NCBI RefSeq assembly: GCF_021401345.1
Contig: NZ_JACBGE010000005.1
Location: forward strand, 124,001-188,000
Length of the DNA: 64,000 nucleotides
Reading direction: 5' to 3'
Source: Hydrogenophaga sp. NFH-34
GTDB taxonomy: Bacteria; Pseudomonadota; Gammaproteobacteria; Burkholderiales; Burkholderiaceae_C
Numbering within the stretch: position 1 is the first letter of the stretch; every line of letters starts with the position of its first letter. A model generated the notes under the pieces. That model was not told the origin of the DNA and did no database searches. It saw only the letters and a list, made by a program, of their open reading frames with translations. Positions 2,989-48,248 of the stretch are shown in pieces. A program made the translations under genes and the position numbers.

Positions 2989-3891
2989 ATGTCCTTTTCT
3001 GCCTGGCTTGAACTCATCGCCTCGGGTCTCATCACCGGGGGCATCTACGCGCTGGTCGCGCTGGGGCTCAACCTCCAGTACGGGCTGATGCGCATCCTCA
3101 ACATCGCGCACGGCGAATTCCTCATGGTCGGCGCGTTCCTCACCTGGATGGTGCAGTCCAGCTTCGGCCTCTCGCCGCTGTGGATGATCCCGGTCTCGTT
3201 CGCGCTGCTCATGGCGCTGGGCATCGCCATCCACTGGCTGTGCTTCCGCCGCCTCACTGCCACTTCGCCCAACCTCGACGTGTTCGAGGCGCGGGGCCTC
3301 ATGGTGGCCTTCGGCCTCATGTTCCTGGTGCAGAACGTCATCTCCTACGTCTGGGGTGGCGATCTGCGTGGCTACGACTTCCTCACGCAGCCGGTGCAGA
3401 TCCCGCTGCCGGGCGGCGAGGCGCAGTTTGCCGCCAACAAGCTGCTGGTGTTCGGCTTGGCGCTGCTGTTTGCGGGCGCGCTCATCGTGCTGCTGCGCCA
3501 GACGCTGCTGGGCAAGGGCGTGCGGGCGTTGATGCAGTCGCCCATCGGCGCGCAGCTCGTGGGCATTGACACCAAGCGCCTGCACCCGCTGATGTTCGGC
3601 ATCGGCCTGGGCCTGTCGGGTGTGGCCGGCTGCCTGCTGTCCATGGCCTACACCATCAGCCCGTCCATGGGCGAGCCCTACACCGTCACCGCGCTCATCG
3701 TCATCACGCTCGGCGGCTTCGGCAGCATGGGCGGCGCGCTCGCGGGCGGCCTGCTGCTCGGCGTCATCGAAGCCGTGGGCATGCACTTCACCAACCCCTC
3801 GCTCAAGGCCTTGCTGAGCTACGTCGTCTTCATCGGCGTGCTGCTGCTGCGTCCCGAAGGCCTGTTTACGAGAAAGAGCAGAAAAGCATGA
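2989..3891 (+). CDS. livH: Branched-chain-type ABC transporter permease (LivH family)
   Basis: 300 residues, inner membrane, about eight hydrophobic segments. The start MSFSAWLELIASGLITGGIY and the following YALVALGLNLQYGLMRILN with NIAHGEF is the family's diagnostic N-terminus (the usual form is NxAHG near residue 40). It pairs with LivM to form the channel. An ATG at 2989 was chosen because it begins exactly at the family N-terminus, although no good Shine-Dalgarno precedes it; the leader is occupied by the repeat at 2881. Confidence 0.88.
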   Translation: MSFSAWLELIASGLITGGIYALVALGLNLQYGLMRILNIAHGEFLMVGAFLTWMVQSSFGLSPLWMIPVSFALLMALGIAIHWLCFRRLTATSPNLDVFEARGLMVAFGLMFLVQNVISYVWGGDLRGYDFLTQPVQIPLPGGEAQFAANKLLVFGLALLFAGALIVLLRQTLLGKGVRALMQSPIGAQLVGIDTKRLHPLMFGIGLGLSGVAGCLLSMAYTISPSMGEPYTVTALIVITLGGFGSMGGALAGGLLLGVIEAVGMHFTNPSLKALLSYVVFIGVLLLRPEGLFTRKSRKA

Positions 3892-3896
3892 CGCAC

Positions 3897-3970
3897 AACG
3901 CCGGACCGCTCCAAGTTGTGCGAGCCCCCTCGGGGGGCAGCGCAGTACACGCAGTGACAAGCGTGGGGGC
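3897..3970 (+). repeat. Intergenic repeat-like hairpin element
   Basis: The gap between livH and livM contains GCCCCCTCGGGGGGC, a strong hairpin, followed by GACAAGCGTGGGGGC. It resembles intergenic elements common in Comamonadaceae (from memory) but is not closely related to the other repeat copies in this window. Its GGGGG may also serve as the livM ribosome-binding region. Confidence 0.5.
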
Positions 3971-31194: not shown

Positions 31195-31250
31195 AGCCGT
31201 TCACCTCTTCCGCGTTCATCAGGGCCAACGAAGCAAAACCGGCCCGTGTG

Positions 31251-31354
31251 CACCGCGGAACCGGCTCCGCCGGGCCGCAGGCGCAATTCCCCCGACCCGC
31301 GACGCTGGCGCGCCAGCGCGGGGAAAAGCCGCCTCGGGTGGCGCAGGAGGGCGC
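31251..31354 (-). repeat. Dispersed GC-rich intergenic repeat, copy in minus orientation
   Basis: Contains CGCGGAACCGGCTCCGCC, the reverse complement of the core seen at 2934 and 43707, plus a strong hairpin GACGCTGGCGCGCCAGCG. It fills the gap between the SMR gene and the permease gene. Confidence 0.7.
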
Positions 31355-32204: not shown

Positions 32205-33092
32205 TCAGGCGGCCTTTTGCAGTTGTTGCTGGTAGCCCTTGAGCACCTCTTCGCGCAGCACGCCCCAGATGGCGGCGTGCAGTTCGAGGAAGCGAGGCGT
32301 GGTCTTGACCTCGGCCACGTCGCGCGGGCGCGGAATGTCGATGGCGAACTCGCCGATCGGGTGGCTGGCCGGGCCGGCGCTGAGGATGACCACGCGGTCG
32401 CTCATGGCGATGGCTTCGTCGAGATCGTGCGTGATGAACAGCACCGCCTTCCGGCCCGCGCCCCCTTGCGCTGCGCGCTGTCCCCCCGAGGGGGAGCTCG
32501 GCGAGCTGGGGGCGGCCCGGCGCTCGCCGCCCTGCCAGAGATCCAGCACCTCGTTTTCCATCAGCTGGCGGGTCTGGATGTCCAGCGCGGAAAAGGGCTC
32601 GTCCATCAGAATGATGTCCGGGTCCATCACCAGGGTCTGCGCCAGGCTGGCGCGCTTGCGCATGCCGCCGCTCATCTGGTGCGGGTAGCGGTCACCGAAG
32701 CCGCCCAGGCCGACGCGGCGCAGCCATTCTTCGGCCTGGGCCTTGGCATCGCGATCCGCCAGACCGCGGAACTGCAGGCCGGCCATGACGTTCTGCAACG
32801 CCGTGCGCCAGGGCATCAGGCTTTCGGCCTGGAACATGTAGCCGGCCCGGGCATTGATGCCCGACAGGGCCTCGCCGAAGATGCGCACGCTGCCGGTGCT
32901 GGGCGTCAGCAGGCCGGCGGCCACATTGAGCAGCGTGCTCTTGCCGCAGCCGGTGGGGCCGACCACACTCACGAACTCGCCAGCCCCCACGGTGAGGTCG
33001 ACGTTCTGCACCGCGGTGTAGCGCTGGCCGGGGTTGTCCTTGCTGACGAAGGTGCAGGCCACGCCCTGCAATTCAATGGCGGGATGACTCAT
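32205..33092 (-). CDS. ABC transporter ATP-binding protein with an in-frame insertion
   Basis: 295 residues. Walker A GPTGCGKS (45-52), signature MSGGMRKR (140-147), Walker B IILMDEP (160-166), D-loop SALD (168-171), switch His222. SsuB/TauB relatives have about 5 residues between the tryptophan of DLW and the strand VLFITHD; here there are about 28. The extra segment (about 188-213, Ser/Pro/Gly/Ala-rich) is encoded by a repeat-like DNA element (see 32454). The catalytic residues are all kept, so the protein may still work. ATG at 33092. Confidence 0.85.
   Translation of the reverse strand: MSHPAIELQGVACTFVSKDNPGQRYTAVQNVDLTVGAGEFVSVVGPTGCGKSTLLNVAAGLLTPSTGSVRIFGEALSGINARAGYMFQAESLMPWRTALQNVMAGLQFRGLADRDAKAQAEEWLRRVGLGGFGDRYPHQMSGGMRKRASLAQTLVMDPDIILMDEPFSALDIQTRQLMENEVLDLWQGGERRAAPSSPSSPSGGQRAAQGGAGRKAVLFITHDLDEAIAMSDRVVILSAGPASHPIGEFAIDIPRPRDVAEVKTTPRFLELHAAIWGVLREEVLKGYQQQLQKAA
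32454..32531. repeat. Repeat-like hairpin element inside an ABC ATPase gene
   Basis: Contains GTCCCCCCGAGGGGGAG, a strong hairpin, next to TGCGCTGCGCGCTG. This resembles the intergenic repeats in the window (for example GGGGGGACAGCGCC at 43691). It is inserted in frame between the D-loop and the switch histidine of the ATPase, adding about 24-26 codons. No stop codon is introduced in the reading frame. Confidence 0.6.
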
Positions 33093-33120: not shown

Positions 33121-33200
33121 AGCGGGGAACGCCGCGGAACCGGCTTCGCCGGCCCGCTGGCGTTGTCCCCCTCGCGGCGTCAGCCGCGCAGGGGGGTGTC
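33121..33200 (-). repeat. Dispersed GC-rich intergenic repeat, minus orientation
   Basis: Lies between the ATPase gene and the upstream binding-protein gene. Contains CGCGGAACCGGCTTCGCC and, at its end, CGGCGTCAGCCGCGCAGG, the reverse complement of the CCTGCGC-GCTGACGC block at 43630 and 63451. Confidence 0.75.
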
Positions 33201-43627: not shown

Positions 43628-43738
43628 CCCCCCCTGCGCCGCTGACGCGGCTTCCCCCCTCCGTAGCGCGCCGCTGCGAGGCGCTTCGAGGGGGGACAGC
43701 GCCTGTGGCCCGGCAAAGCCGGTTCCACCGCGCCCTCG
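43628..43738 (+). repeat. Dispersed GC-rich intergenic repeat, longest copy
   Basis: Starts CCCCCCTGCGCCGCTGACG, nearly identical over about 31 bases to 63449-63480. It then has GGGGGGACAGCGCC and ends in the core at 43707-43738 that matches 2934-2965. Located between fdnI and fdhE. The whole element resembles a composite of two hairpins. Confidence 0.8.
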
Positions 43739-43813
43739 ATTTGGCGCTTCTTTATTCGTTGCGGGTCTTCGATTTGAGGGCGGTGGCTCTGTGTTTTTTG
43801 GGATCAACTGAAC

Positions 43814-48153: not shown

Positions 48154-48248
48154 GGAAGGGAAGCGTCCCCGGTGGGATGCCCGGGCTTCAAACCCGGCGG
48201 GTTGCGCCAAGCGCGGCCGGTGGGTTCGACTCCCTCTCCCTTCCGCCA
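48154..48248 (+). tRNA. selC: tRNA-Sec (UCA anticodon)
   Basis: 95 nt. 8-bp acceptor stem GGAAGGGA (48154-48161) with TCCCTTCC (48237-48244), discriminator G, encoded CCA (48246-48248). Anticodon stem CCGGG/CCCGG around CTTCAAA, with TCA at 48188-48190. A long extra arm and TTCGACT in the T-loop. The 8-bp acceptor stem and long variable arm are the tRNA-Sec hallmarks. Confidence 0.95.

Follow-up and report, generated by a model that had tools for sequence, protein, structure and literature searches.

In-frame copies of a dispersed hairpin repeat in an ABC ATPase gene and other predicted genes of a Hydrogenophaga genome

The window, a stretch of 64,000 nucleotides (G000:C55:124001-188000) from a Hydrogenophaga genome of 5.18 Mb in 72 contigs (G000), carries a gene for an ABC transporter ATPase on its minus strand (Table 1). 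Structure searches returned the CmpBCD/NrtBCD ATPases as top matches. In line with the initial annotation, according to which the catalytic motifs are kept, the alignment columns that we take to be Walker A, the signature, Walker B, the D-loop and the switch histidine were invariant or nearly so among orthologues. By its motif set and ABC ATPase fold, the protein is an ABC importer ATPase. Its predicted structure had a mean pLDDT of 86.8 and a pTM of 0.84, and the sole stretch of at least three residues with a pLDDT below 50 comprised residues 190-212, between a helix (172-186) and a strand (216-220). This stretch lies in an extra in-frame segment, which is thus predicted to be disordered within an intact fold.

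Table 1. Features of the ATPase locus and of the hairpin family in the window
Feature	Position in window	Strand	Basis
ABC transporter ATPase gene, NrtCD/TauB/SsuB-like importer, insert host	32205..33092	-	translation of 295 aa
Extra in-frame segment, residues 188-212	32457..32531	-	orthologue alignment; 25 of 29 genus orthologues without it
Repeat copy proper	32460..32532	-	covariance model R1, 53 bits, E 1.1e-6
Hairpin 1: perfect 7-bp stem GGCGAGC/GCTCGCC, conserved loop GCCGGGCCGCCCCCA	32500..32528	-	sequence; family covariation
Hairpin 2: TCCCCCTCGGGGGGA	32481..32495	-	sequence; family-conserved
Hairpin 3: GCGC-GCA-GCGC, then AAGGGGGC end	32468..32478	-	sequence; family variability read by eye
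Second window copy of the hairpin family, located where a stop meets a start (ATGA before the copy, ATG directly after it)	3889..3970	+	profile search and R1

The top NCBIfam model of the ATPase was the taurine ABC ATPase, whose equivalog cutoff (NF008421) was missed (183.9 bits, best stretch 25-189, versus 357). Two insert-free orthologues likewise fell short of it (194.7 and 201 bits), and the low score is therefore not ascribed to the insert. In practice, what differs is where the best alignment ends: for carriers it breaks off at the insert (25-189 and 25-187), and for two noncarriers it reaches residues 216-217.

The window protein reads ...LDLW-Q-GGERRAAPSSPSSPSGGQRAAQGGA-GRK-AVLFITHD, whereas the insert-free orthologues of the genus mostly read ...LW-(QS or AA)-KKK-AVLFITHD. 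The orthologue alignment placed the extra residues, which the initial annotation had put at about 188-213, at about 188-212. On balance, G000 and G002 are 24 residues longer here, and G010 and G012 are 25 residues longer. These four carriers accounted for the segment in a first alignment of 22 sequences, of which 18 were devoid of it. Strong orthologue matches (E ≤ 1e-60) were present in 29 of the 67 genus genomes; 4 had the segment and 25 a five-residue loop. Furthermore, reading the interval between two motifs at a set of 80 loci, some of them from Hydrogenophaga, revealed the segment in none of the 73 readable ones; 7 loci had no motif-pair match and were left out, and a long match at L103 was due to an early start of the pattern, its real loop being short. 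The segment is thus not shared across these orthologues; as the repeat also has many matches in the genome (see below), the refuting outcome named with the initial annotation, a family-wide segment without repeat relatives, did not occur. In the G002 assembly, an upstream part of the gene consists of unknown bases. Since the segment is present in four assemblies, an assembly error is unlikely.

The DNA of the insert had been described as resembling intergenic repeats, and this resemblance proved real. When 161 bp around the site were used as a DNA query against the own genome, 32 matches were obtained at E ≤ 1e-3. One was the site itself, and 4 corresponded to the conserved flank of the gene (query bases 4-51). 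The other 27 fell on the insert part (query bases 52-129, window positions 32451-32528), the best of them with an E value of 1.8e-8 and 80% identity over 68 nt. This search uses no model and provides an independent test of repeat identity. The covariance model R1 was built from 28 copies, including four ABC inserts, and the R1 score of the ABC copy (Table 1) is therefore partly circular. The proposed relation to intergenic repeats of the window held for one element, at 3889-3970, the only other copy found inside the window, but not for the repeats at 31254 and 33133, which belong to a different family. The latter family, distinct from the hairpin family, consists of palindromes with a core around GGAACCGGCTTCGCCGG; its members lie close to the ABC operon as well as at other places of the window (31250-31305, 33130-33170, 2919-2966 and 43692-43739). 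In addition, a selenocysteine tRNA is predicted at window positions 48154-48248 (plus strand).

An iterated profile search and alignment revealed the architecture of the repeat. A constant loop of approximately 15 nt, GCCGGGCCGCCCCAA, lies between arms that differ among copies yet are mostly complementary; loop and arms are followed by CCCCCTCGGGGGG, a third region, and GGGGGC. The unit usually comprises 73-85 nt, and there are also tandem arrays, in which copies recur approximately every 84 nt (e.g., L129 and L132). In the ABC copy, the conserved loop is located at 32507; the motifs pointed out in the initial annotation, CCCCCCGAGGGGGAG and TGCGCTGCGCGCTG, lie on the plus strand at 32482-32496 and 32467-32480, respectively. 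In the RNAalifold structure of 28 copies, standard pairs made up 91.5% (76.6% in shuffled alignments), 57 cells showed double changes (16.0 in shuffles), and the covariation score was 0.369 (0.114 in shuffles), dropping to 0.102 or less when the partner was shifted by 1-3 columns. These pair counts cover the C5/G5 hairpin and stem 1, whereas hairpin 3 was identified by visual inspection. The fold energy of single copies was not clearly better than that of shuffled sequences (six sequences, z from -1.43 to 0.27), and therefore the structural claim rests on covariation. Thus, of the folding and copy search proposed along with the initial annotation, the copies and a covarying stem were obtained, but not a distinctive single-sequence fold (z of -0.02 for the ABC copy). 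An Rfam search of 6 loci gave no match on a copy, its three matches (E 0.11-0.81 and 0.95) all lying under the gathering scores.

With 150 of 7,937 candidates scored, R1 gave at least 82 matches at E ≤ 1 and at least 65 at E ≤ 1e-3 in the own genome, both numbers being lower bounds. When 150 candidates were likewise scored per genome and the threshold was E ≤ 0.001, 11 other genomes of the genus contained from at least 17 to at least 135 matches. The lowest count belonged to G006, a genome that is 81% complete; the ten genomes that are at least 99% complete gave from at least 29 to at least 135 matches each. At the same depth and threshold, genomes from two further genera within the family yielded at least 5 and at least 32 matches, and one genome of another family yielded none. 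In two genomes from other genera, G222 (L177, L182, L184) and G334 (L179, L183, L185), related elements are situated just before apparent start codons, several of them at ATGA junctions, and G222 has three tandem copies with a 77-nt period.

Copies in the own genome were assigned to genes with a simple codon-usage gene caller. One of the 82 matches lay outside the fetched stretches; of the remaining 81, 24 were within predicted genes, 16 overlapped a gene edge and 41 were intergenic. For 36 of the 57 nongenic copies, a gene boundary was located no more than 20 nt from the 3' end, and in 28 of these 36 cases the gene was on the opposite strand; several copies were found at ATGA/TCAT stop-start overlaps. 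The 24 in-gene copies are spread over 23 predicted genes, two cases being doubtful: the MFS-like gene at L137, which has two copies close to its 5' end, and a weak match (E 0.89) in L251. The L251 gene (2719-4464, minus strand), which by our reading encodes a sugar-type ABC ATPase, has an apparent long insert after the signature motif; the insert contains VDSRLRGNGG, perhaps another repeat, in addition to the weak match. Thus, the ABC insertion, treated as a single case in the initial annotation, is an insertion but not a single one. The hosts MutS (L130), LigA, RecJ, RadA, RsmG, RecQ, HrpA and CobQ scored above the NCBIfam cutoffs, and the other host genes bear tentative names based on our reading of the sequence.

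In 18 in-gene copies the element is in sense orientation, with all three frames in use (AGPPQ-, PGRPK- and RRAAPS-type peptides), and in 6 it is antisense, always in the same frame, which contains PPEGA. Among the 34 nongenic copies with scores of 56 bits or more, any one of the six reading frames lacked stops in 26 to 33 copies.

For comparison with relatives, the own genome and seven others were searched with 18 segments, and 14 in-gene sites were aligned; the other four segments (Fic, dioxygenase, Nudix/MBL and FdsB) had no individual alignment. At all 14 sites, including those in MutS, LigA, RecJ, RadA, RecQ, RsmG, HrpA and CobQ, the element was missing in at least one relative. The flanks were exactly contiguous in MutS of G006 and in LigA of G002, while one element-free relative each had a short unrelated stretch at the HypD and CobQ sites. 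That certain loops are targeted more than once and tolerate inserts is indicated most strongly by relatives carrying elements at the same site. In RsmG, G006 also has the element (99 of 111 bases identical). The CobQ element of G000 is in sense orientation, but those of G001, G010 and G012 are antisense; conversely, the element in the linker of a FAD/OYE fusion is antisense in G000 and sense in G001 and G010, the G002 row being masked at this site and counted neither way. Furthermore, the RecJ site of the G000 repeat is occupied in G010 (L258) by another palindrome, TGAGCCTGTCGAAG ... TTTCGACAGGCTCGG, whose translation is VRTEPVEG.... DNA repair and replication genes (MutS, LigA, RecJ, RadA and RecQ) made up 5 of the 23 hosts. 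The binomial probability of at least 5 such genes among 21 (without the two doubtful cases) is 3e-4 at a base rate of 3% and 0.003 at 5%, where the category was picked after viewing the list and the base rates are assumed.

The repeat matches, the empty sites and the kept motifs support an in-frame insertion of a repeat into the ATPase gene, as initially suggested. We consider it highly probable (roughly 0.9) that the whole is explained by the in-frame insertion of one copy of a nonautonomous hairpin repeat, which is dispersed in Hydrogenophaga-type genomes and in at least two further genera. The unit would be a small mobile hairpin, recognized through its structure by a putative enzyme. Most insertions into genes would be purged, and the survivors would be those that add a multiple of three bases and are read through in a stop-free frame. 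Such survivors would sit in loops or linkers, where they may add a segment that is tolerated and for the most part disordered. The ABC ATPase has its insert in the loop that connects the helix following the D-loop to the strand leading to the switch histidine, and this insert is presumably translated as part of the protein.

How the repeat moves was addressed by several comparisons. No general target-site duplication was found (30 of 81 copies; mean score 4.9, versus 4.6 for mismatched pairs). A stem derived from the target had been considered, the stem in other genera resembling the start of the next gene; it was dropped as a general rule because the scores were close to those of mismatched pairs (4.9 versus 4.6) and only 1 of 30 nontandem copies, at C71:95510, was a strong case. 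The sole Y1_Tnp (RAYT-like) match of the genome is located at C10:72145-72423 (L126 2771-3592, minus strand). Among the copies listed, a lower bound, none was within the fetched 7 kb around this match; the nearest one on the contig was approximately 22 kb away, at C10:94592. Mobilization by a RAYT is unsupported, since no transposase gene was flanked by copies in this lower-bound list.

The segment is rich in Ser, Pro, Gly and Ala, and the RNA fold of the ABC copy is no better than shuffles (z -0.02), as could be expected of an ordinary lineage-specific loop extension, for example by GC-rich expansion, with a chance likeness to the repeat. Such an extension is very improbable: 27 other genomic places resemble the segment in the model-free search, the constant loop and the C5/G5 hairpin align in register among them, and the same element is in frame in many unrelated predicted genes. 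Even less credible is a pseudogene or an assembly artifact: four assemblies contain the insert, and the open frame, the kept motifs and the low pN/pS of the host speak against decay. Retention of the insert for a function, either as a regulatory RNA or DNA hairpin in the coding sequence or as a recruited protein segment, appears improbable, although less so than the two previous explanations. Between carriers, the insert DNA differs at 6-15% of sites, and host-gene synonymous divergence is 0.32-0.46, as constraint on a DNA or RNA structure would give; however, the low divergence is also expected of inserts younger than the host splits. According to the orthologue alignment, the inner stem of hairpin 1 differs between two host groups by a compensatory change (CGAGC/GCTCG to CGGGC/GCCCG), but the differing stems could be two different copies. 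The proportion of DNA repair and replication hosts (5 of 23) parallels a tendency reported for other REPs (in PMC3733652), but was noticed post hoc and depends on an assumed base rate. At the protein level, pN was no lower than pS in any of the six carrier pairs. Over the 22 codons of the insert, pS was 0.05-0.08 and pN 0.06-0.18 (pN/pS of approximately 1.2-2.7), compared with a pN of 0.024-0.074 and a pS of 0.32-0.46 in the host gene (pN/pS 0.07-0.17); the insert values rest on small numbers (1.0-1.5 synonymous and 3.0-8.5 nonsynonymous differences per pair in four related sequences). Thus, the ABC insert shows no sign of protein-level constraint. This and its predicted disorder (pLDDT below 50) leave functional novelty of the segment, and thereby the suggested creation of a useful new protein segment, unsupported.

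Insertion of a repeat copy is compatible with several histories of the ABC site. In the rpoB tree, G000 and G002 group with the insert-free G006, and G010 with the insert-free G001, G024 and G033 (of the 17 genomes, 2 gave no rpoB match, and G019, a short fragment, was excluded). In the tree of the ABC backbone, most inner forks of which are too poorly supported for finer branching to be read, G010 and G012 fall within an eight-row group (96/98) that includes six other species, and G000 and G002 fall outside it. Based on both trees, the carriers do not form a clade. Transfer of the whole ABC gene is unsupported, because the backbone separates G010 and G012 from G000 and G002 and windowed identities show no recombination tract in the flanks of the gene. 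A single ancestral insertion in the genus, followed by several losses that left scattered carriers, is a rather unlikely course, although somewhat less so than retention for function. It would be consistent with the insert tail GGGGGGACAGCGCGAAGCGCAAGGGGGC, which (with up to 3 mismatches) was found, among 66 genus genomes, only in the ABC gene of the four carriers, and with the GRK that follows the insert in all four of them versus the KKK of noncarriers. Among 399 genomes of the family, those with the tail were the own genome and five from other genera, one per genus. However, an ancestral insertion needs several separate, precise losses, each restoring KKK, in G006 beside G000 and G002 and in G001, G024 and G033 beside G010. 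Moreover, insert divergence is below host synonymous divergence. Unless constraint acts on the DNA, this value is low for an ancestral insert and makes the inserts appear younger than the splits between their hosts. The carriers may go back to a common origin followed by exchange over short range, to independent insertions of one subfamily, or to an ancestral gain with losses.

A broader view, which we hold only as an unlikely generalization, is that a class of mobile hairpins with a constant loop and a freely covarying stem, read by a putative structure-specific enzyme, repeatedly hits permissive loops of housekeeping and repair proteins in either orientation across a free-living genus and supplies them with disordered segments. 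If this were true, the inserts in MutS, LigA, RecJ, RadA and RecQ might alter the mutation rate.

In-frame insertion of the repeat is real and one of many, and its kind is already known from the Rickettsia palindromic elements (RPEs) and from intragenic REPs. A title by Ogata from 2002 reportedly presents protein-coding palindromes as a feature unique to Rickettsia. No description of the hairpin family in Hydrogenophaga or Comamonadaceae was found in titles and abstracts of the open-licence literature, which is weak evidence of absence. The RPEs are described as dispersed palindromic elements of approximately 150 bp, located in frame in many unrelated genes and each having a conserved encoded peptide (review PMC10969869, citing Ogata 2000 and 2002). 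Similarly, the hairpin family is dispersed, palindromic, in frame in unrelated conserved genes and missing from at least one relative at each of the 14 aligned sites. It differs by its shorter unit (usually 73-85 nt), by its occurrence in a Hydrogenophaga-type genus, and by having no conserved encoded peptide, three sense frames and one antisense frame being used instead. The same paper describes MITEs with in-frame fusions as small, nonautonomous and both intergenic and intragenic (PMC10969869). These properties are shared by the hairpin family, which, however, lacks a general target-site duplication; terminal inverted repeats spanning the unit were not seen by eye in the copy alignment.

According to Di Nocera et al. 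(2013), GTAG/CGTC REPs are mostly intergenic and near gene ends, and some are intragenic, many of the latter in genes for DNA synthesis and repair, including DNA ligase (PMC3733652). The paper also reports different REPs at about the same site in recB of two Xanthomonas species, and catalogues intragenic REPs in several other species (PMC3733652). CGTC REPs are characterized there by the CGTC tag, a stem of 8-9 bp and a loop of 4-5 nt (Table 1 of PMC3733652). Like these REPs, the hairpin family is short and mostly nongenic near gene ends, with some copies in repair genes, including that for LigA. In contrast, it is longer, combines multiple hairpins with an approximately 15-nt constant loop and a covarying stem, and is devoid of a GTAG/CGTC tag: a 20-nt stretch around the 5' end contained GTAG in 0 of 81 copies, and CTAC was found around the 3' end in 3; CGTC was present around the 5' end of 1 copy, and its complement GACG around the 5' end of 12 and around the 3' end of 4 of the 81 copies. 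What the family adds to the known systems is some two dozen in-gene copies in one genome outside Rickettsia and the catalogued REP species. Since all 14 aligned sites have empty counterparts and some loops have elements in opposite orientations, the fate of in-frame insertions, whether tolerated, purged or recruited, is directly testable here.
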